Positions 490 through 13,474 of a stretch of DNA of 33,887 nucleotides are shown in pieces (the stretch's first letter is position 1; the number at the start of each line of letters is the position of its first letter). The notes below the pieces were generated by a model. That model ran no database searches. It was not told the DNA's origin and saw nothing but the letters and a program-made list of their open reading frames with translations. Location of the stretch: positions 1 through 33,887 of the forward strand of contig CAIMWN010000165.1 of NCBI GenBank assembly GCA_903845155.1, written 5' to 3'. The position numbers and the translations under genes were made by a program. Source of the DNA: Oligoflexia bacterium (GTDB taxonomy: Bacteria; Bdellovibrionota; UBA1018; CAIMNF01).

Positions 490-710
490 CATCGTCCTCA
501 TCGTTGTGGATGGTTTCACGTTGCCCAAGGCAACTCTGTCAAAGGCTGATCGGTAAATGTTTAAAGAAAGTTGAGACATTTTGTACCTTGAGTGTGTGAG
601 GCGGTTTGTCCCTATTGATGATGATTTTCACTAAAGGAAAATGGGGATAACTCTATAAAGCTTCGGCACTTAACGTCCGATCAGTGACGTTGAGAACAGA
701 GGAGCAAAAT

Positions 711-2837
711 ATGAGTTTTGGCATCGGGAAGAAAATTGGCATCTTAGTGGCATTACCCTTAATCGCTTTTATAGGTCTCGCGGTGACTTCAGCCACCGTA
801 AATTGGCAACGCTTCGTGGCGGCAAAGGCGATCAAAGCTGACACTGAACTTTTTCAGGCCCTATCCATCTTCATCCATGATCTTCAAAAGGAGCGGGGCC
901 TATCAGCAATGTTCTTGGGTGGGAAGTTAAGTGCCGATGATCTGAAGGCGCAAAGGCGCATGGGGGATCAGGAGGAAGTTGACCTTCAGAACGCCCTAAA
1001 ATTAGTGGCCTTAGATCCGGCATCCACCGCAAAATTAAAAAGTTCTTTCATCGCTTTAAGTGATGTTCGTGAGAAAACCGATGCGAAACAAGCGGCATCC
1101 GACATGTCGGCGGCCTACAGTGATTTGCTCCAGCATCTGATAGAAGTGGAAGTCGGCGTGACTCGCGTGGATCGCTTAGATGGAATTGAGACCAAACTTC
1201 TCAGTTTAACTATGCTCGAAAGTGCCAAAGAGAATGCCGGAAGACTGCGCGCAAATATTACAAATATTCTCAATGCAGATGTTGGAATTAACAATCTTAA
1301 AGTTTCGATGGTCTCTGGTTTGCGTTCAGGCGTAATTGCCAATATGGATTCGCCCGCCCTTCTGGTTTCAACAGAAGGGCGGCAGAGTTTAGAGAAGTTC
1401 AAAACCTCGAGTGACTGGATCAAGGCATTGCAGGTAATCGAAACGGTATTACTTAAATCAGATCAAGGTAAATTTGGCGAGAAACCGGCAGAATACTTCA
1501 CCGCAGTGACTGCATCCATAGATGCACTCGGGGCGGTGGTCAAATCGGAACTTGATTCTATACATAGTGAATGCATTCAAATGAATAAGAGCGCACTGCG
1601 GATGCTTGGTTTGATGATTGGGCTATCGTCACTGATTGCTTTCATTCTGCTGGTTGCGGCATGGAAAATGGTAAGTCAAATCATAGTTCAGCTTCATTCC
1701 CTGGCAGAATCACTCAGTACAGGGGCAAGTCATGTGGCAACGACGGCAGGAGAGGTGTCTTCATTGAGCGCGGAACTTTCCAGTGCGACCACGGAGCAAG
1801 CAGCCTCACTCCAAGAGACGGTTGCGTCCATTGAAGAAGTGAGTGCGATGGTCAGCAAAAATGCGGAAAATGCGAAAAATTCACAAGAGTCCGCGGTCGT
1901 GAGCCAGCAAGTGGCGAAACGTGGCAAGGCCACTCTCCAAGAGATGATGGTTTCCATGGAAGCCATCAATGAAAATAACAGCCAAATTAAACATCAGATG
2001 GATGAGAGCAATCAACAGATGTCTGAAATTGTCGCGGTAATCACCGAGATTGGTAAAAAGACTTTAGTCATCAACGACATTGTTTTTCAAACCAAACTTC
2101 TTTCGTTTAATGCCTCTGTGGAGGCTGCCCGCGCGGGCGAACACGGAAAGGGTTTTGCCGTGGTTGCAGAAGAAGTGGGAAATCTCGCGCAAATGAGCGG
2201 AAATGCCGCTAAAGAAATTTCCCAAATGCTGGTAGCGAGTATTGAAAAGGTAGAAGGGATTGTTCATTCCACACAAAAAAATGTGGAAAGTTTAGTCGTG
2301 GCAGGAAAAGGGAGAGTGCAAGAGGGAACAAAAATCGCAGAGCGCTGCGATGGGGTACTCAATGAAATCGTCAACAATGTGGAAAATTTGAGTTTGATGA
2401 TTTCTGAAATCGCCACCGCCTGTGCCGAGCAATCACAGGGAGTACAGGAAATTAACAAGGCCATTATTCAGCTTGATCAAGTCACTCATAAAAATGCAAG
2501 TGTTTCCCAACACTCTGCCCACGCATCAGATTCACTGACTACCGAAGTAAAAGATTTGCGAAGCATGGCAGGTACACTTGCTTCATTGGTTTCCGGTAGT
2601 TCACAGGAGAAGGTGAAGATGACTGCAGCGAAGGTGGCAGTAGCGAAGGTTTGCCCAAGCTCAGTAAAAATTGCAGCTCAACATTCAAACGTAGTGCCCA
2701 TTAAAACAGCGGAAGTAAAAAAGACGGTACCACCAGTGGTAAAATCCGAAATCCCATTGAAAAAAGCTGTGGGAACTCATGTGGGACTCTCGGAATCAGT
2801 GCCATCCCATGACGACAAAAGATTTGAGGAAGTTTAA
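711..2837 (+). CDS. Methyl-accepting chemotaxis receptor with NIT-like periplasmic domain
   Basis: This inner-membrane chemoreceptor has 708 residues. Membrane segments lie at about residues 8-28 and 298-320. The periplasmic part begins with a helix containing HDLQKERGLSA, the hallmark of the NIT (nitrate/nitrite sensing) domain. The cytoplasmic part is a long coiled coil whose tip, around residues 455-480, reads FQTKLLSFNASVEAARAGE, the conserved site that binds CheA and CheW. No clear HAMP domain follows the second membrane segment. The C-terminal 75 residues are a Lys/Val/Ser-rich tail without the NWETF-type pentapeptide that tethers CheR and CheB in enteric receptors. The ATG at 711 is chosen over an upstream GTG (684) because AGAGGAG ends six bases before it. 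It is the first gene of the chemosensory operon; CheA begins three bases after its stop. The ligand is not shown by the sequence. Confidence 0.9.
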   Translation: MSFGIGKKIGILVALPLIAFIGLAVTSATVNWQRFVAAKAIKADTELFQALSIFIHDLQKERGLSAMFLGGKLSADDLKAQRRMGDQEEVDLQNALKLVALDPASTAKLKSSFIALSDVREKTDAKQAASDMSAAYSDLLQHLIEVEVGVTRVDRLDGIETKLLSLTMLESAKENAGRLRANITNILNADVGINNLKVSMVSGLRSGVIANMDSPALLVSTEGRQSLEKFKTSSDWIKALQVIETVLLKSDQGKFGEKPAEYFTAVTASIDALGAVVKSELDSIHSECIQMNKSALRMLGLMIGLSSLIAFILLVAAWKMVSQIIVQLHSLAESLSTGASHVATTAGEVSSLSAELSSATTEQAASLQETVASIEEVSAMVSKNAENAKNSQESAVVSQQVAKRGKATLQEMMVSMEAINENNSQIKHQMDESNQQMSEIVAVITEIGKKTLVINDIVFQTKLLSFNASVEAARAGEHGKGFAVVAEEVGNLAQMSGNAAKEISQMLVASIEKVEGIVHSTQKNVESLVVAGKGRVQEGTKIAERCDGVLNEIVNNVENLSLMISEIATACAEQSQGVQEINKAIIQLDQVTHKNASVSQHSAHASDSLTTEVKDLRSMAGTLASLVSGSSQEKVKMTAAKVAVAKVCPSSVKIAAQHSNVVPIKTAEVKKTVPPVVKSEIPLKKAVGTHVGLSESVPSHDDKRFEEV

Positions 2838-2840
2838 ATT

Positions 2841-4706
2841 ATGGATGAATTTGAGATTGAACTGAAACGTGGTTTTTTGGATGAAGCGACCCAATTGGTG
2901 AGCGATGCCGAGCATTGTTTTTTGGACTTGGAATCGAACCCCAATGATGTTCCCACCTTGGAGAGAATTTTTAGAGTCGCCCACAATATTAAGGGCAGTT
3001 CGAAGGCAGTTGGTTTTGATCAATTGGGAAGTTTTACGCACGATTTTGAATCCCTCTTCCTTAAAGTGAAAAACCATCAGATTTCGATGACTCCTCAATT
3101 GATCGGTCTGTTACTCAGATGTACCGATCAAATTAAAACCATCGTTGATGGACTTAAGGTTGATCTACTGGCGACGTTTGATTTGGATGCGCTCCTGCTT
3201 GAAGTGAGGGCGGCAACCGCTGGCGAAAAACAGGTTGCGCCAGAGACGCCGATTCAAACAGCGGAAGTAGAAGCGCCAGTGGAAGTAGAAGCGACTGCTG
3301 AAGAATCAGCAGAAGTGCGGGTGGATGAGGTTTTTAGTGCAAGTGACCTTTCTCGTGACGATTTAGCTCTCTTAGAGAATTTCCATTCCGGTCTTGCTCC
3401 ACCCGCTCCAGAACCTGCAATTCAAGGTGCGCCAACGATTGCGCCGGTAGTGCAGTTTGCTCCTGTCGCTCCGGTACCTGTGCAAAAAACGCAAGCCCCT
3501 GCGGGCTCTCCTTCCGGCACATCCGAGGAATCCATCCGAGTGAGTCTTTCGCGACTTGAAAAATTAATTAATTTTGTGGGTGAACTCTCCATATTGCAAA
3601 CCGTGCTGCAAGAGCAGCTCGCTACGAGTTCTTCACCGAGTTTACGAAAAACGTCATCTCAGTTAGGTAAAGTGTGTAAAGAGGTACAAGACCTTTCGAT
3701 GAGTTTAAGAATGATCCCGGTAAAGCAAACATTTCAGAAAATGCAAAGGATCGTCCGCGACACGAGTGCGACTCTGAATAAAAAAGTGCAACTCATTGTG
3801 GAAGGTGAGGAAACTGAGCTCGATAAAACTGTGCTCGAAGCCATTGGCGACCCTCTGGTGCATCTGGTGAGAAACTCAGTGGATCACGGAATTGAATCGG
3901 CCGAGCAAAGGGCAAAGGCAGGGAAACCAGAAATGGGCAAAGTCTGGCTTCGTGCTTTTCATCAATCGGGCAAGTTAGTCCTAGAAGTGACGGATGATGG
4001 CGGAGGTATTGATGGACAAAAGCTTCTTGCAAAAGCAATTGAAAAGGGTGTGATCAAACCCGGTACCGTGATGAGCGAAAGGGATGCGGTGAATTTAATT
4101 TTCCATCCTGGATTTTCATCCAAGTCAGTGGTGAGTGAGGTGTCTGGGCGGGGTGTAGGAATGGATGTCGTGAAAACAAATATTGCCCAACTGCAAGGCG
4201 AAGTAAGTGTGACGACTGAGGTCGGCAAGGGTACCACTCTTCGCGTCGAACTTCCACTTACGCTTGCGATCATCGATGGCATGGTGGTGGAAAATAAAAT
4301 GGGTTTAAAAACAGAACGTTTTGTTGTGCCACTTTCGCATGTGTATGAATCGCTCAAACCAAAACCGGGCGAACTTCATGTGAAAACGGGTATGGGTGAG
4401 GTGCTTCAACTTCGCGGCGAAGTCCTGCCGATTTATCGCTTATCAAAGTTACTCAGTAAGCCAAATAAGAATGCCCCTACAGAGCAAATTGCACTGATTT
4501 TTAGAAATCATGAGCGACCGTATGCCGTCATGGTAGATGACATCTTAAGGCAACAACAAATTGTGGTGAAACAATTAGGTGCAGAATTGAAAAGTTCAAA
4601 AGGGTTTAGTGGGACTGCCATCTTAGGTGATGGAAAGCCAGCGCTGATATTGGAAATGTTAGAATTAGTGGGAATGGTAAAGAATCAGGAGAGAGGGATT
4701 GCATGA
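2841..4706 (+). CDS. cheA: Chemotaxis histidine kinase CheA (no P2 domain)
   Basis: This cytoplasmic sensor kinase autophosphorylates and passes phosphate to receiver domains. In its 621 residues the domains are an HPt domain with the phosphorylated His48 in AHNIKGSS, a Pro/Ala/Glu-rich linker (about 130-225), a P3 dimerisation helix pair (about 230-290), a P4 ATPase domain and a C-terminal CheW-like P5. P4 shows the N box at 339-350 (LVHLVRNSVDHG) and the G1 box at 383-390 (VTDDGGGI). The linker shows no sign of the folded P2 domain that docks CheY or CheB in enteric CheA, which agrees with the length being slightly short. GAGGA inside the end of the receptor gene serves as ribosome binding site. 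The stop overlaps the cheW start by four bases (ATGA), indicating coupled translation. Confidence 0.95.
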   Translation: MDEFEIELKRGFLDEATQLVSDAEHCFLDLESNPNDVPTLERIFRVAHNIKGSSKAVGFDQLGSFTHDFESLFLKVKNHQISMTPQLIGLLLRCTDQIKTIVDGLKVDLLATFDLDALLLEVRAATAGEKQVAPETPIQTAEVEAPVEVEATAEESAEVRVDEVFSASDLSRDDLALLENFHSGLAPPAPEPAIQGAPTIAPVVQFAPVAPVPVQKTQAPAGSPSGTSEESIRVSLSRLEKLINFVGELSILQTVLQEQLATSSSPSLRKTSSQLGKVCKEVQDLSMSLRMIPVKQTFQKMQRIVRDTSATLNKKVQLIVEGEETELDKTVLEAIGDPLVHLVRNSVDHGIESAEQRAKAGKPEMGKVWLRAFHQSGKLVLEVTDDGGGIDGQKLLAKAIEKGVIKPGTVMSERDAVNLIFHPGFSSKSVVSEVSGRGVGMDVVKTNIAQLQGEVSVTTEVGKGTTLRVELPLTLAIIDGMVVENKMGLKTERFVVPLSHVYESLKPKPGELHVKTGMGEVLQLRGEVLPIYRLSKLLSKPNKNAPTEQIALIFRNHERPYAVMVDDILRQQQIVVKQLGAELKSSKGFSGTAILGDGKPALILEMLELVGMVKNQERGIA

Positions 4707-5209
4707 AACGAGCAAATGAAATTGGAAAAACAGCTGAGCGATTTTTAACGTTTACCCTGGGGGGTGAGAGTTTTGCGATACCATTATTGCAAGTAAAAGA
4801 AGTGATCGCGCTACCGGAAGTGACTTCGGTTCCGCAGACACCCGCTTACTTTTTAGGGATTATGAATTTGCGCGGACAAGTGATTACGGTACTAGACCTC
4901 AGAGTGAAGCTTTCGATTAAACCTGCCGAGAATCAGGAAACGGTCGTAATTATTTGCGATCTTTCACCTTTTAGTGTGGGTATTGTCGTGGATTCCGTAA
5001 CGAGTGTCCTTGCGGTGACACCAGATCAAATAGCGCCAAAGCCGGAACTGACTGGAAGTAAAGTAGATTCGATTACCGGAGTTTATCAGAATGCGAATCA
5101 TTTAATTTTGATGCTGGATATTTCGCGTACCTTGAATTTAGTGGATCATGCCGCGGTCAAAAAAATTCAAACTTCAATTGCCGTTGATTCCCAAGGTAAA
5201 GCTGCGTAG
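4703..5209 (+). CDS. cheW: Chemotaxis coupling protein CheW
   Basis: This 168-residue protein is a single CheW domain, which bridges the receptor signalling tip and CheA P5 in the chemosensory array. It shows typical family wording: FTLGGESFAIPLLQVKEVI near the N-terminus, then YFLGIMNLRGQVITVLDL, and VGIVVDSVTSVL in the middle. A C-terminal stretch of about 20 residues is non-conserved. It overlaps cheA by four bases and precedes the cheR fusion by 23 bases, where TTGGAGA gives a ribosome binding site. It is the only CheW in the window, so it is presumably dedicated to the receptor at 711. Confidence 0.95.
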   Translation: MKRANEIGKTAERFLTFTLGGESFAIPLLQVKEVIALPEVTSVPQTPAYFLGIMNLRGQVITVLDLRVKLSIKPAENQETVVIICDLSPFSVGIVVDSVTSVLAVTPDQIAPKPELTGSKVDSITGVYQNANHLILMLDISRTLNLVDHAAVKKIQTSIAVDSQGKAA

Positions 5210-5232: not shown

Positions 5233-7104
5233 ATGAGTAATGCACTGTTGAAGCCAGCACCTCAGATTGATGATCCAACGCTTGCGGTTCAAGAAATCGC
5301 TAAAATTGCACAGGAACTCACCGGGGTTCAATTAAATGATCGTCACTCATCGATGATCTTGTCTCGGTTGCAGAAGCGTTTAATGCAATTGAATCTTGCA
5401 TCTTTGCAGGATTATATCGCATATCTGAAAAGGAATTGGGATGCGGAAAGTCAGGTTCTGATTGGAACCTTAACCACGCATCACACCTATTTCTTGCGTG
5501 AGTTTGCTCATTTTGAGTTTATCACATCAGACGTTCTGAAAACACTGGTGCCCCAAGTTCTAGCGCGCGCGGATAAAACACTGAGAATATGGAGTGCGGC
5601 GAGCAGCCGTGGTCAAGAGGCGTACAGCTTGGCGATGGTGATTCAATATGCCATCCAGAAGCAATTTCCAGAAGCGGTTAAACAGATCAAACTTGATATT
5701 TTAGGAACCGACATTGATGCCGAGTGTGTGGCAATGGCAAGGAACGGTGTTTATCCGTGGAATGAGGTGAAAGAGATTCCGCTCCATTTGTTGAGCTCGA
5801 ACTGGATTCGAGGCTCGGGAGACATCTCGAATTTCGCAAAGGCAAAAAACCAACTTCGCACGGTGTGTCGGTTTGAACAGCAAAACTTGCTCTCGCTTAA
5901 TTTAAAGAATGAAAAACCATTCGACATCATTTTTTGCAGAAATGTATATATTTACTTTGATCAAAAACAGATTCAATTGATCACTCAAGAACTTTTGAAG
6001 AATATGAATCCGGAAGGTTTTCTGTTCCTGGGGATTTCAGAGTCCTTGCATGGACTTCCACTTCCAGTGAAAAATATTGGCCCTTCTATTTACGTTAAAA
6101 ATACTCATTCAAGGCTTGCTGGGAAGGTCGCGGCTGCGAAATTGCTTCGCATTTTGGTGGTGGACGATTCGCCCAGTATTCACACTTTAATGAAGCAGAT
6201 TTTTACTGCTCAATACGGTTTTGAAATCGCAGGTTTTGCGATGAATGGTTTAGAAGCTGCTACATTTTTAAAAACGAACCGAGTGGATGCACTCACCCTA
6301 GATATTCATATGCCCGAGCAAGATGGAGTGGAGTACCTACGTCGGAATTTCAATTCTAGTCATCCGTCCGTGGTCATGGTGAGTTCTGTTTCTCGGGAAG
6401 ACTCAAGCCTAGCTGCACAGGCCTTGGAAAATGGGGCTTCGGATTATGTGGAGAAGCCCGCACTAAATAACTTGAAGCAACGAGCGGATGAACTGAGAAC
6501 CAAGATTCGCTGTTCAGTCAGGGTAAAGGAGAATGGATCGCGTGATTTGAGTTTAGATCGTGCATTCCAACAGGTTACAAAAGTTACCGACCCCGAAAAT
6601 AAAGTGAGAATTCTGCTCATGCAAGGTGTAGATCGAAAGCGAATCACCGGAACTTTAAAAGCAATGGTCTCATTCCATCAGCCCCCCTGTATCCTTTTCT
6701 TGGATGCTGCTGCCAGTGGAGCAGCTTTCATGAAGGAACAATTTGAAAAAGAGTGGGGAATGCGTTTGAAGTCGGAGGAGGATTTGATCCATCACCCTGC
6801 TAAGCCAGGGGACGTGTATTTGTTATTTCATTCTGGGACCATCCAAGACACTTTAATGAAAGTCTATTCCGAAAAGATGGCCGTGAGCTTGGTTTGTGGT
6901 GATGTTTCCAATGAAGCTTCGATATTATTTCATCATGTGAAATCGCAAGCCTTAATGGCAGGCCAGGATTGGAATTTGGTTTTGGAGGAACTCGGTGAAC
7001 GGAATCCTAAAAATGCTCTTTTTGACCTCGCCACGGAATTCTCACCGCTTTCGGGTTTTGCCTATCTTTCTGAAAAATACTTTAACCAGAAGAAAAAAGG
7101 GTAG
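5233..7104 (+). CDS. cheR: CheR methyltransferase fused to a receiver and a degenerate CheB-like domain
   Basis: The 623-residue protein has three parts. Residues 1-285 are a complete CheR, which methylates receptor glutamates using S-adenosylmethionine; WSAASSRGQEAYSLAM and FDIIFCRNVYIYFD mark the cofactor fold. Residues 304-425 are a receiver domain with the acidic pair Asp311/Asp312, phospho-acceptor Asp357 in LDIHMP and Lys408. Residues 457-620 align by eye along most of the CheB methylesterase domain encoded next door (for example QPPCILFLD against PPILVVQH). The catalytic serine motif STGG, the histidine of QH and the aspartate of GADG are all absent. The last part is therefore inferred to be an inactive methylesterase fold, perhaps a receptor-binding module. 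The start has GGAGA 12 bases upstream. Phosphorylation by CheA presumably gates methylation. CheR and receiver parts are certain; the third part is inference. Confidence 0.9.
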   Translation: MSNALLKPAPQIDDPTLAVQEIAKIAQELTGVQLNDRHSSMILSRLQKRLMQLNLASLQDYIAYLKRNWDAESQVLIGTLTTHHTYFLREFAHFEFITSDVLKTLVPQVLARADKTLRIWSAASSRGQEAYSLAMVIQYAIQKQFPEAVKQIKLDILGTDIDAECVAMARNGVYPWNEVKEIPLHLLSSNWIRGSGDISNFAKAKNQLRTVCRFEQQNLLSLNLKNEKPFDIIFCRNVYIYFDQKQIQLITQELLKNMNPEGFLFLGISESLHGLPLPVKNIGPSIYVKNTHSRLAGKVAAAKLLRILVVDDSPSIHTLMKQIFTAQYGFEIAGFAMNGLEAATFLKTNRVDALTLDIHMPEQDGVEYLRRNFNSSHPSVVMVSSVSREDSSLAAQALENGASDYVEKPALNNLKQRADELRTKIRCSVRVKENGSRDLSLDRAFQQVTKVTDPENKVRILLMQGVDRKRITGTLKAMVSFHQPPCILFLDAAASGAAFMKEQFEKEWGMRLKSEEDLIHHPAKPGDVYLLFHSGTIQDTLMKVYSEKMAVSLVCGDVSNEASILFHHVKSQALMAGQDWNLVLEELGERNPKNALFDLATEFSPLSGFAYLSEKYFNQKKKG

Positions 7105-7109
7105 TAGTG

Positions 7110-8546
7110 ATGATGGCGATCACACTGAAAGATAAACAGATTTTAAAGGAGTCCGATGCGGCAAGCATTTCATTTTGCTTACCCCCTGGGCATCTTTTGC
7201 TTTGGGGTGCCTTTGAAAAGCAAAGCGTGGCGTGGGTTGTGGAAGCGAAGGAAGAGCGAATCAGGGATGTCATAAAACTCATTTCAAGTGAAGTGACTTC
7301 GAAACGCAATTCATTTCAGTTCGTAAAATATATTTTTGCCACGAGCGAAGCACATGCAAATCAAGGGTTGAGTCAGAGTATCGAGAAACTGCTGGATGCT
7401 GAGCTCAAGAATCATGATGTCAAAGTAGAAGGAAAACTGCTTCGCCGTGGGATACTCAAAGGCGAGCTTGATTTTAGTCGACGACGTCTTCGAATTGAGA
7501 AAAAGATGAGACTCATGATCGTCGATGATTCAAAGGCGATGCGGGACTTATTGGCGAATGTATTTTCAAAAGATACCGACATCGAGGTCGTCGCGACCGT
7601 TGAACACCCTCATTTGGCCCAAAAATTAATTCCTGAGCTGAAGCCAGATGTGATTACTCTTGATATTCACATGCCCGATATGGATGGAGTGACGCTTCTC
7701 AAAAGTTATATGTCCGCGAATCCGATTCCCACCATCATGATTAGTTCACTGACCATGGAAGAGGGTCCTTTGGTGCTGAATGCGCTTGAGGCCGGAGCGG
7801 TAGATTACATTCAAAAGCCAAGTTTCAATGAGTTATCGGCCCTAGGCCCTCTGATGATTGAAAAGGTGAAGGAAGCCAGTCGTTCGAAAGTGAAGATCAA
7901 GAGATCGTTCGATCATGGAAAGCATTCGCTCAACACTGGAACGATTGATGAGCGTGCATTAGTGGTGATTGGTTCGTCCACCGGCGGCACCGAAGCGTTA
8001 AAACAAGTGTTTTTATCGCTTCCTGCATCGATTCCTCCTATTTTAGTGGTTCAACATATTCCTGCTGTTTTTTCAAAAGCCTTTGCGGATCGCTTGAACC
8101 AGCTTTGTCCTTTTGATGTGAAAGAGGCCAAAGATGGTGATTTGATTTTACCCAACCAAGTCTTAATTGCGCCGGGCGGTTTTCAAATGGAAGCGGTTAT
8201 GAAGGGTACTGACTGGCGGGTGAAGGTTACGGATGCGCCGCCGATGAATCGCCATAAGCCTTCAGTTGATTTTCTTTTTGATTCCTTGGTACAAAATTCT
8301 GCAAATTTGAATCTCACTGCCGTCATTCTGACGGGAATGGGAGCCGATGGAGCGCGGGGGATGAAAGCGTTGAAAGCGGTGGGCGCTCACACCGTAGCTC
8401 AAGATGAAGCAACGTGTGTGGTCTTTGGAATGCCTAAAGAAGCGATTCGCATGGGCGGTGTGGATGAGGTACTGCCGCTTGATGGAATCGCATCCAAAAT
8501 CATGGCGCTCGTGAACGTGCCTGAAAAGAAACGCCGCTCAAGCTGA
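7110..8546 (+). CDS. cheB: CheB receptor methylesterase with CheD-like N-terminal extension
   Basis: This response-regulator methylesterase removes methyl groups from receptor glutamates when phosphorylated by CheA. In 478 residues, a receiver domain begins near 133 (Asp139/Asp140, phospho-acceptor Asp185, Lys236). The esterase domain begins near 281, with the intact triad Ser290 (GSSTGGTEAL), His316 (VVQHIP) and Asp413 (GMGADG). CheB is normally about 350 residues. The extra 130 residues at the N-terminus end with a segment (NQGLSQSIEKLLDAELKNHD, then LRIEK) that resembles the C-terminal half of the receptor deamidase CheD. No Cys-His pair at the CheD active-site positions is visible. ATG 7110 is preferred over an overlapping GTG at 7107 because AGGG lies about eight bases upstream. 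It follows the cheR fusion by five bases and closes the operon. Confidence 0.93.
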   Translation: MMAITLKDKQILKESDAASISFCLPPGHLLLWGAFEKQSVAWVVEAKEERIRDVIKLISSEVTSKRNSFQFVKYIFATSEAHANQGLSQSIEKLLDAELKNHDVKVEGKLLRRGILKGELDFSRRRLRIEKKMRLMIVDDSKAMRDLLANVFSKDTDIEVVATVEHPHLAQKLIPELKPDVITLDIHMPDMDGVTLLKSYMSANPIPTIMISSLTMEEGPLVLNALEAGAVDYIQKPSFNELSALGPLMIEKVKEASRSKVKIKRSFDHGKHSLNTGTIDERALVVIGSSTGGTEALKQVFLSLPASIPPILVVQHIPAVFSKAFADRLNQLCPFDVKEAKDGDLILPNQVLIAPGGFQMEAVMKGTDWRVKVTDAPPMNRHKPSVDFLFDSLVQNSANLNLTAVILTGMGADGARGMKALKAVGAHTVAQDEATCVVFGMPKEAIRMGGVDEVLPLDGIASKIMALVNVPEKKRRSS

Positions 8547-9183: not shown

Positions 9184-10182
9184 ATGAAATTTTTATTCGC
9201 GATATTGGTATTGGGTTATTTACCACAAGCTTTAGCAACTGATCTCACCGGTGCCGGTTCAACCTTTGTGTATCCCATCATTGCTAAGTGGGCTGATACT
9301 TACAAAAAAGGAAATGGCACGAGCATCAACTACCAATCCATTGGTTCAGGCGGCGGTATTAAACAAATCGAAGCCAAAACCGTTGATTTTGGTGCTTCAG
9401 ATATGCCGCTCAAACCTGAAGAATTGAAGAAAGAGGGCTTAGTCCAATTTCCTCTCGTGAACGGAGGCTTAGTGGCCATCGTGAATATTCCGGGCATTGA
9501 AGATCAAAAAATGAAACTGACCGGAGACATTCTTGCCGAGCTTTTCTTAGGAAAAATTACTCAATGGAATGATCCAAAAATTGTGGCCCTGAATCCCGAC
9601 TTGAAACTTCCTAAATTAGAGATCTCGATTGTCCATCGTGCAGATGGTTCGGGCACGAGCTTTATTTGGACAAACTATCTTTCTAAGGTGAGCCCTGAGT
9701 GGAAGACAAAGGTGGGCGAAGGTACTGCTGTAAATTGGCCAGTGGGTGTAGGCGGAAAAGGAAACGAAGGGGTCGCTTCGTTTGTAAAGCAAACGAGTGG
9801 TTCTATTGGTTATGTTGAGTATGCTTATGCACTTCAAAATAAGCTCATTAGCACTCAAATGAAGAATAAAGCAGGGCAGATGGTAAAACCAAGCCTAGAG
9901 AGTTTTCAAGCGGCCTCCGCATCTGCTGAATGGGCGAAAGCGGATCAATTTTTTCTCGTCCTCACTGATGCGCCCGGCAAAACAAGTTGGCCTATCGCTG
10001 GAACCACTTTTGTCATTATGCAGCAAAATCAATTAAAGCCTGAACAAGGTAAAGAGGCAATTAAGTTTTTCACCTGGGCTTATCATCATGGCGAAGCCCA
10101 AGCGAAGGAACTTCAATACGTTCCATTGCCTGCAAATGTAGTGAAATTGGTCGAGAAAGCATGGACACAAATTAAATTCTGA
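9184..10182 (+). CDS. pstS: Phosphate ABC transporter substrate-binding protein PstS
   Basis: This 332-residue periplasmic phosphate-binding protein begins with a signal peptide ([18 protein letters not shown]). The mature part shows the PstS phosphate-contact segments [26 protein letters not shown] and RADGSGTSF, and the closing segment [26 protein letters not shown] lies just upstream of the ATG. It captures phosphate for the PstCAB importer encoded immediately downstream; the gap to pstC is only a few bases. The mature N-terminus has no lipobox, so it should be soluble in the periplasm. I found no convincing Pho box in the 128 bases upstream. Confidence 0.97.
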
Positions 10183-10186
10183 ATGG

Positions 10187-11182
10187 GTGAGAAGTGTGCA
10201 ATCATCAGAAGTAGTGGCATCTGAGCAAGTAAGTACGTTTTCAAAAAGCATTACCGATGTGGCTTTGAAGCGTCAGGCGATTCTGAACTTTGGGTTTAGA
10301 ACCATGACTTGGTTTGCAATGCTATCTGTGATCGGCATCTTGCTCGCCATCTTACTCGCACTCGGCATTGGTGCTTGGCCCGCCATCCATACCTTCGGAA
10401 TCCGCTTTTTTAGTACTTCCGAATGGAACCCCGTCACTCAGGAGTTCGGTGCTGTCGTTCCGATTGTAGGAACACTCATCACCTCCGTGATTGCGATGGT
10501 CATAGCTGTGCCCGTCAGTTTTGGAATTGCCATTTTTTTAACCGAGCTTTCACCATCCATTTTAAAACGTCCTCTCGGCACGGCCATTGAGCTATTGGCC
10601 GCCATTCCTAGTATTATTTACGGAATGTGGGGCTTGTTTGTTTTTGCTCCATTCTTTGCAAAAAACATTCAACCGTGGATGAACGAAAATATGGGTCCGT
10701 TTTTTCATGGACCACCGATGGGGATTGGTGTTCTCACTGCGGGATTAATTTTAGCGATCATGATTATCCCTTTCATTGCGGCTGTGATGCGGGATGTGTT
10801 TGAAGTCGTACCGCCGATGTTAAAAGAATCTGCCTATGGCCTGGGGGCAACGACCTGGGAAGTGCTGTGGAATATTGTAATCCCTGAAACCAAAACCGGT
10901 GTAATTGGGGGAATCATGCTCGGGCTAGGGCGCGCCTTAGGAGAAACCATGGCCGTTACCTTTGTCATCGGAAACGCCCATCATCTTTCACGCTCACTGA
11001 CCATGCCCGGAAATACTATTTCTTCGTCACTTGCAAATGAGTTTACCGAGGCCGTGGGCGAACTCTATACTTCATCGCTGATTGAGCTTGGGCTCATCCT
11101 CTTTTTGATTACCTTTGTAGTGCTGGCGATTTCGAGACTCCTTCTTTTGAGACTCCGTAAAAAGGAGGGGCTGCAATCATGA
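10187..11182 (+). CDS. pstC: Phosphate ABC transporter permease PstC
   Basis: This 331-residue inner-membrane permease forms the phosphate channel with PstA. Multiple hydrophobic segments are visible, starting at about residue 40. The BPD_transp EAA-like loop is seen as [20 protein letters not shown], and [20 protein letters not shown] follows in PstC-typical form. The N-terminal 35 residues are a cytoplasmic extension. The start is uncertain: GTG at 10187 gives the longest frame, while GTG at 10196 has GGTGAGAAG close upstream. The gene starts four bases after the pstS stop and overlaps pstA by four bases (ATGA). Confidence 0.95.
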
Positions 11183-12030
11183 ATGCCGGATTCAAGCATT
11201 ATTACCGTAGGTCTACTAACGCGTTTGCCTTAACTCTTTCACTTTTTGCAATGGTGTTTGGATTATTTTGGTTAGGCTGGATTCTCTACACTCTCTTTAT
11301 TCATGCGATCCCCGCACTGAAGAGCACCGTGTTTGTACAAAACACTCCGCCGCCGGGTGAAAAGGGCGGCTTGCTCAATGCCATCGTGGGGAGCTTGATG
11401 ATGAGCGGGATTGCTACCTGCATCGGTACTCCGATTGGAGTATTAGCCGGTACTTATTTAGCAGAAATAGCCCCTAATCATTATCTTTCAAAAATCACGC
11501 GTTTTATTAATGGGATTCTGCTTTCTGCTCCCTCCGTGGTCATTGGTTTTTTTGTTTATGCTTTAGTGGTTGCAAAAAGTGGTCATTTTTCAGGTTGGGC
11601 AGGCGTCATCGCCCTCACTATTATTCTGATTCCGGTGGTAGTTAATAGTACTGAAAGCATGCTTCGTCTGGTGCCTCAAACGATTCGTGAGGCCGCTTTT
11701 GCGCTCGGTGCGCCCGAGTGGAAGGTGATCACGCTCGTTGCTTATCGCGCGGCTCGCTCGGGTATATTAACTGGGGTGCTGCTTGCGGTGGCGAGAATTA
11801 GCGGTGAAACGGCGCCCTTGTTATTTACCGCACTCAATAATCAATTTTTTAATTCAGATTTGGCAAAGCCGATGGCCAATTTACCGGTCGTTATTTTTCA
11901 ATTTGCAATGAGCCCCTATGATGATTGGCAAGATTTAGCATGGGCTGGCGCTTTTTTGATTACACTCAGTGTGCTCGCTTTTAATGTAGTGGCTAGAATA
12001 TTAATAAGGAATAAAAATGCTCGACACTAA
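11179..12030 (+). CDS. pstA: Phosphate ABC transporter permease PstA
   Basis: This 283-residue inner-membrane permease pairs with PstC. It has about six hydrophobic segments, the first at roughly residues 15-40. Family motifs include [16 protein letters not shown], the EAA loop [20 protein letters not shown], and [20 protein letters not shown]. Its ATG overlaps the pstC stop by four bases, and its last 14 bases overlap the start of pstB, so pstC-pstA-pstB look translationally coupled. Length and order are standard for the family. Confidence 0.96.
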
Positions 12031-12787
12031 TCTTCCAGTTAAGATCCGGGTTAAAAACTTAAGTTTTTACTATGGCGCCTTTGAAGCGTTGAAGTCGATT
12101 AATCTCTCGATTCTCGATCGGAAAGTCACTGCTTTTATTGGCCCATCCGGCTGTGGAAAATCAACATTACTTCGCACCTTTAATCGCATGAATGAACTTT
12201 ACCCGAAGCAGAAAACTACGGGCGAGATCTTAATGAATAATGAAAATATTCTGGATGCGAGACAAGACGTCAATCGTCTTCGTGCACGGGTGGGGATGGT
12301 TTTCCAAAAGCCGACGCCCTTTCCGATGTCGATCCATGACAATATCGCCTTTGGGGTGAAATTGTACGAGAACTTGAGCCGAATCGAGATGAATGAGCGA
12401 ATCGAATGGGCTCTTCAAAAGGCCGCACTGTGGAAAGAAGTAAAAGATAAGCTCAAGCATAGCGGTACTAGTCTTTCTGGCGGACAGCAACAACGGCTCT
12501 GTATTGCACGCGCAATTGCGGTAAAGCCGGAGGTATTGTTGCTCGATGAGCCCACCTCGGCTTTGGATCCTATTTCGACAGCCCAAATCGAAGAATTGAT
12601 GCATGAATTAAGAAAAGATTATACTATTGTGATTGTGACCCACAATATGCAGCAAGCGGGTCGCGTATCGGATTATACTACTTTTATGTATCTTGGCGAA
12701 GTGATTGAGTTTAATAAAACTCACAAAATATTCACGAACCCCGATCAAAAATTAACCGAGCAATACATTACCGGTCACTTTGGATGA
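12017..12787 (+). CDS. pstB: Phosphate ABC transporter ATPase PstB
   Basis: This 256-residue cytoplasmic ATPase powers phosphate import through PstCA. The Walker A motif GPSGCGKST is at 42-50, the ABC signature LSGGQ at 153-157, Walker B LLLDEP at 174-179, and the switch histidine is in VTHN. The family-specific stretch [20 protein letters not shown] is present, which is typical of PstB rather than other ABC ATPases. AAGGA lies before the ATG, inside the end of pstA. phoU follows 24 bases later. Confidence 0.97.
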
Positions 12788-12811
12788 ATCAAGCTTCATG
12801 GAGGAGCAAGG

Positions 12812-13474
12812 ATGGAACGTCACTTCGATCAGGAATTTAGTAAGTTAAAGGATAAAATACTAGAAATGGGCAATCATGTCCAAGCTGCGGTTGATCTCGC
12901 GATTAGGGGCCTGACTGAACGAAATACCGACCATTTTGCCCAAGTTCATGAAATTGAGAAAAATATTAATTTAGCGCATCTGGATGTGGACAAGTTCTGC
13001 ATTCGGCTTTTTGCACGCCAATCGCCACTGGGAGCCGATTTAAGACTCGTTTTTTCGGTAGTGAAGATTAATGCCGATCTTGAGCGCATGGGAGATCAAG
13101 CAGTGAATATTGCTTACAATGGTAAAGATTACCTCACCCGTCCTCCCATCAAAGAACTCGTAGATTTACCTAAAATGGGTGAAGAAGTAAAAACAATGGT
13201 GAGAGATGCTTTGGCGGCTTTCTTCACACTCGATGTGGAACAGGCTAAAAAAGTGCTGATGAATGACGACGTCGTGGATGAACTCAAAAATAAGATTTTT
13301 AATGAGCTCTCTAGCATGATGAAGGCAAATCCAGCGGTGGTAGATGGGGCACTTGATTTAATCTTAATTGCGCGGAATCTTGAGCGCTTAGGTGATCATG
13401 CGACCAATATTGCTGAAGCGGCGATTTTTGATGCAAATGGCGAAGATGTTCGTCACGGAAAAGATAAAACTTAA
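12812..13474 (+). CDS. phoU: Phosphate signalling regulator PhoU
   Basis: This 220-residue helical cytoplasmic protein has the two PhoU repeats, each with the metal-binding motif: ERMGDQAVNIA starting at residue 91 and ERLGDHATNIAE near residue 190. PhoU reports PstSCAB activity to the Pho two-component system and restrains phosphate uptake. GGAGGAG lies just before the ATG. It sits at the usual position after pstB. No phoR or phoB is present in this window, so the partner kinase must be encoded elsewhere. Confidence 0.96.
   Translation: MERHFDQEFSKLKDKILEMGNHVQAAVDLAIRGLTERNTDHFAQVHEIEKNINLAHLDVDKFCIRLFARQSPLGADLRLVFSVVKINADLERMGDQAVNIAYNGKDYLTRPPIKELVDLPKMGEEVKTMVRDALAAFFTLDVEQAKKVLMNDDVVDELKNKIFNELSSMMKANPAVVDGALDLILIARNLERLGDHATNIAEAAIFDANGEDVRHGKDKT

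Follow-up and report, generated by a model that had tools for sequence, protein, structure and literature searches.

The window analysed here, a stretch of 33,887 nucleotides from an Oligoflexia bacterium (contig CAIMWN010000165.1), contains an operon-like run of genes that encode, in order, a NIT-sensor chemoreceptor, CheA, CheW, the protein that is our main subject, CheB and a TPR protein. The chemoreceptor gene (684..2837, + strand; Pfam PF08376 and PF00015) specifies a C-terminus that reads ...DDKRFEEV and has no NWETF-like pentapeptide. It is followed by the genes for the CheA kinase, which has Hpt, dimerisation, HATPase and CheW domains (2841..4706, + strand), and for the CheW coupling protein (4703..5209, + strand). 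Directly after the chemotaxis genes, positions 9184-13474 hold what appear on inspection to be phosphate uptake genes for PstS, PstC, PstA, PstB and PhoU, an ordinary set.

The open reading frame at 5233..7104 (+ strand) translates into a protein of 623 residues. A CheR_N domain (residues 20-68, 5290..5436; PF03705, E 3e-8) and the SAM-dependent methyltransferase domain of CheR (residues 84-282, 5482..6078; PF01739, E 3.5e-46), both above the Pfam cutoffs, are followed by a receiver (REC) domain (residues 307-417, 6151..6483; PF00072) with Asp357 as phospho-acceptor, and then by a C-terminal domain of ~168 residues (455-623, 6595..7101), all on the + strand. We refer to this last domain, for reasons given below, as pseudoCheB; in a Pfam search with the 623-residue protein, no match was obtained in the last ~170 residues. 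The key residues of CheR (R89, E129, D160, N237, Y241 and SE269-270), in the active site and SAM site, are essentially invariant, being kept in 93-98 of 98 phylum-wide homologues. The receiver likewise has its full complement, with the acidic pair D311 and D312, the phospho-acceptor D357 and the lysine K408 present in 98 of 98 homologues, and Ser or Thr at the S384 position in the same 98. The CheR and receiver domains should therefore both be functional.

The receiver is of the CheB type. When the receiver and its linker (residues 305-438) are compared with 18,950 NCBIfam families, the best matches are CheB models, at 96 and 85 bits, and the best family other than CheB reaches 62 bits, compared with 96. 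These scores were used in place of a receiver tree, in which the CheR receiver is not sharply placed because few columns are available. CheR thus probably joined a whole second CheB, receiver and linker included, whose esterase domain then decayed.

The original prediction held that the C-terminus is CheB-like along its length. At the level of the family, its CheB-like character is borne out. The window's domain has no Pfam match as a single sequence, and a genus-level profile gave nothing when compared with CheB (probability 1.7); the CheB signal emerged with 28, and then 86, sequences in the profile. These 86 members define the domain family, and the residue and motif tallies given for it below are based on them. 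Its nearest relative aside, the members share no more than 13-27% sequence identity with the window's domain. Against all PDB sequences the 86-member profile ranks CheB first (1CHD, E 0.0067) and again fourth (1A2O), and PF01339 alone is matched by 6 of the 86 members (best 4.3e-5), more often than any other Pfam family. Profile-profile comparison by hhalign gives a score of 42 (probability 89) with 79 CheB domains from the same genomes and 52 (probability 95, E 4e-8) with 136 CheBs, the significant match that the prediction had looked to such a comparison to provide. Controls with the receiver, CheR, the N-terminal domain of the partner protein, reversed CheB and 60 column-permuted CheBs score no higher than 19. 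A resemblance between the C-terminal domain and the partner's N-terminal domain was also considered, and was rejected by profile comparison.

The similarity to CheB is unevenly distributed, however. The domain profile matches 102 of 111 CheB domains (domain E<0.05), and in the top matches a single fixed register runs through the first ~90 residues, to about residue 543, well above the controls. This register itself gives the proposed pairing of PPCILFLD with PPILVVQH. For the C-terminal half, a global alignment is collinear with CheB, yet its score does not exceed that of permuted controls, so that the claim of a match along the whole length is only half proven; the pairing of VSLVCGDVSN with VILTGMGADG, which falls in this half, agrees with the collinear alignment but is not significant on its own. 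An AlphaFold2 model of the C-terminal domain (pLDDT 94) has an α/β fold, with an order of elements that we take to be compatible with CheB. When this model was searched against the PDB with Foldseek, CheB was absent from the 50 best matches, none of which fell below E 0.001. The Foldseek matches of an earlier AlphaFold model, which was built on 10 sequences and had a low pLDDT of 70, were not used as evidence.

At the positions of the CheB catalytic triad the window's domain has Gln464 in place of Ser, Asp491 in place of His and Ser559 in place of Asp, the last of these lying in the less certain C-terminal part of the alignment. A full Ser/His/Asp triad is found in none of the 86 family members. 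The Ser position is still Ser in 32 of them, the His position is Glu or Asp in 66, and the presumed catalytic Asp position is mostly Ser; three members keep the His, without the Ser. By comparison, the triad is present in 120 of 120 CheB domains outside one lineage (g89) that is discussed below. The catalytic residues are thus missing as had been predicted, and domain anatomy and lost triad together support the description of one chain that joins a methyltransferase, a phosphorylation switch and a pseudo-esterase.

The domain family has in addition a motif of its own, for which there is no clear counterpart in CheB. It comprises an acidic pair, [ED][DE] at residues 585-586, followed by P605 and TSF607-609, the latter forming a P-x-[TS]-S-F element (residues 585-609 overall, 6985..7059). 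Residue 586 is acidic in 86/86 members, P605 is found in 84/86, [TSN]607 in 86/86 and S608 in 84/86; the window itself has S607 and G608. These near-invariant positions imply that the pseudoCheB domain is under selection.

The gene immediately downstream (7107..8546, + strand) encodes a CheB protein of 479 residues in which Pfam recognises a receiver (7515..7829; PF00072) and an active CheB methylesterase domain (7962..8501; PF01339, E 1e-62; NCBIfam NF001965 at 388 bits, above cutoff), whose triad, S291/H317/D414, is complete and invariant. The N-terminal 131 residues of this protein (7107..7499) match nothing in Pfam, and a PDB profile search does not detect CheD there either. When the family of such N-terminal domains is compared by hhalign with CheDs of the same phylum, on the other hand, the two align over 120 columns (probability 95.4, E 1.7e-8), with a score of 49.3 against a permuted maximum of 13.6, and the family HMM directly matches the intact CheDs of loci L222 and L150. 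Intact CheD occupies the same place on CheB in L222, L223, L234 and the g89 set. The window's N-terminal domain has neither a GSC nor an H..LP motif, and none of the 96 partners of this kind combines a GSC-type motif with a CheD match; no recognisable CheD was found in the source genome. This alignment to CheD, together with the missing motif, identifies the partner's N-terminal domain as a degenerate CheD that lacks the catalytic Cys motif. The window therefore encodes, side by side, a CheR-REC-pseudoCheB protein and a pseudoCheD-REC-CheB protein. The original prediction missed the degenerate CheD on the neighbouring CheB, and neither pseudoCheB nor pseudoCheD is recognised by current family libraries.

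The two proteins are strictly paired. Of the 82 loci that yielded the two genes on a common strand, 81 have the CheB gene immediately downstream, with a gap of at most 32 nt or an overlap (median 0 nt). In 96 of 96 locus pairs, which represent about 80 distinct genomes since some were counted under two handles, the CheB partner carries pseudoCheD and never an intact CheD; at CheR-solo loci with an N-extended CheB, 4 of 4 carry a CheD that is recognisable from its sequence. Natural fusions of the two proteins also occur. Two single chains, L089:1151-4471 (1107 residues) and L111:2088-5624 (1179 residues), have the arrangement CheR-REC-pseudoCheB-(N-domain)-REC-CheB, and a third, L145:1019-3442 (808 residues), is a CheR-REC-REC-CheB chain without either pseudo-domain; their joint absence could go back to one deletion event after the genes had fused. 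Pairwise divergence of pseudoCheB and pseudoCheD shows a partial correlation of 0.26 when the other domains are controlled for, compared with 0.04 for CheR and 0.07 for CheB. This is only suggestive of co-variation between the two pseudo-domains, weak evidence that points in the same direction as the pairing.

The CheR-REC-pseudoCheB architecture is kept at the genus, order and phylum levels, and is present in 10/13 genomes of the family, 29/58 of the class and 101/369 of those searched in the phylum. The pseudoCheB domain is nearly always found behind CheR and a receiver. Named records belong to Bdellovibrionota (Bdellovibrionales, Bacteriovoracaceae, Oligoflexia), apart from one that carries the label Deltaproteobacteria, and a limited scan of genome contigs gave matches in other phyla that were to CheR without the pseudoCheB domain. 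We found no paper in an open-access collection that describes this architecture; a survey that lists the CheB and CheR proteins of Bdellovibrionota does so without it (PMC8067016).

How does this protein compare with its closest relatives? With CheB (PF01339) it shares a CheB-type receiver, the linker and a homologous, collinear first half of the C-terminal domain; it differs in the absence of the triad, in a C-terminal half that is shorter and statistically unmatched, and in its fusion behind CheR. With CheR it shares both domains (PF03705 and PF01739) and the conserved catalytic and SAM-site residues, but whereas prototype CheR has no receiver, this CheR bears a pseudo-esterase as well as a receiver of the CheB type. 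FrzF and other CheR-TPR fusions similarly combine CheR with a C-terminal regulatory or interaction domain, and in FrzF the TPR module is reported to restrict methylation (PMC3447774); the module in the present case is derived from CheB and is predicted to be open to regulation by phosphorylation. Within the phylum, L127 and L148 are active CheR-REC-CheB fusions that have the same domain order but an intact CheB triad. Neither was accepted as a direct ancestor: the CheR of L148 falls outside the clade of pseudoCheB-type CheRs, and L127 lies beside that clade on a very long branch, which makes its position unsure. They look like separate fusions that illustrate the route rather than the ancestor.

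The partner protein also has relatives. The CheD-REC-CheB fusions of L222, L223 and L234 have its domain order, but their CheD is intact and their CheR is separate. The same order, again with intact CheD, is seen in the CheD-REC-pseudoCheB proteins of g89 (L214, L215, L216, L218, L221, L226-L229, L232, L233, L235 and L237-L240), for which CheR was not seen in the fetched locus. In the g89 proteins the CheB triad is changed from Ser to Asn and from His to Ser in 16/16, so that in this lineage the phylum has lost the esterase a second time.

Why should a CheR carry a receiver? Textbook chemotaxis has a constitutive CheR, with CheB alone regulated by phosphorylation, and models of precise adaptation rest on that; in CheB the receiver lies over the active site of the esterase until phosphorylation uncovers it. 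Sequence comparison establishes the domain anatomy, the loss of the triad, the intact residues of CheR and receiver, the strict pairing and the natural single-chain fusions. Our preferred reading of these features, which falls somewhat short of probable, is that a functional CheR, joined to a decayed whole CheB, is paired with the downstream pseudoCheD-REC-CheB in a phospho-controlled adaptation complex. In such a complex CheA would phosphorylate both receivers. By analogy with CheB, the receiver behind CheR may pack on pseudoCheB, and phosphorylation of Asp357 would alter this packing and hence what the domain presents, so controlling either the activity of CheR or its assembly. The two pseudo-domains would provide surfaces for docking or regulation, most likely for each other, and would hold CheR and CheB together in one adaptation complex under common control, such that the phosphorelay governs both arms of receptor adaptation and not demethylation alone. 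The fuller version, a heteromeric CheR/CheB machine built through two pseudoenzymes and two receivers, in which one signal from CheA sets both rates, must be viewed as a possibility on the unlikely side. The common CheR of this phylum bears a CheB-type receiver, and partner enzymes have become pseudoenzymes that are exchanged between the two proteins. Such a phylum would be a natural setting in which to ask whether methylation can be under feedback, and to what effect. The pair would also offer a clear case of regulatory pseudoenzymes derived from enzymes of the same pathway.

The original prediction suggested instead that pseudoCheB binds receptors without cleaving them. The domain would then keep the receptor-binding surface of CheB and act as a receiver-controlled tether for CheR or as a competitor of CheB, with no special role for pseudoCheD. 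Its CheB ancestry is in keeping with this, as is the operon receptor, whose lack of an NWETF-like pentapeptide would leave CheR with a use for some other tether. The constant pairing with a degenerate CheD on CheB and the single-chain fusions are left unexplained, however, and the catalytic residues of CheB have not been kept; we regard receptor binding as unlikely, if still a serious contender. The comparative data point to a link with the partner protein at least as much as to receptor binding, because of the strict pairing, the single-chain fusions and the fused chain that lacks both pseudo-domains, and the most likely target of pseudoCheB in our analysis is the partner, perhaps through its pseudoCheD.

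Other explanations are less likely still. The domain might have gained a new activity or ligand, with the acidic pair and the P-x-T-S-F motif as the site of binding or catalysis, given the near-invariance of residues 586, P605, 607 and S608 and their want of a clear CheB counterpart. This is improbable, as the window itself has S607/G608, no other enzyme family in PDB or Pfam gives a profile match, and the motif could equally be a surface for protein contact. Slightly more doubtful again is the idea that the domain is some other Rossmann-like α/β domain, similar to CheB in its N-terminal half through shared fold only. The Foldseek matches, which are to mixed Rossmann-like folds with CheB absent from the top 50, and the unmatched C-terminal half would fit such an origin. 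Against it stand the first rank of CheB in searches of the whole PDB and the whole of Pfam, a register that is constant over about 100 CheBs, the position directly behind a CheB-type receiver and linker, and the active CheR-REC-CheB fusions in the same phylum (L127, L148). That the domain is simply a decaying remnant without function is scarcely credible: the low identity of most members to the window's domain and its shorter, poorly matched form in L122, L123, L125 and L128 would be expected of a remnant, but it is kept in 101/369 genomes of the phylum, with near-invariant positions.

Finally, these short forms, to which L147 may be added, have a post-receiver domain of ~130 residues in which the first half is poorly matched. 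At the same loci the N-terminal domain of the partner protein is likewise short, at ~107 residues.
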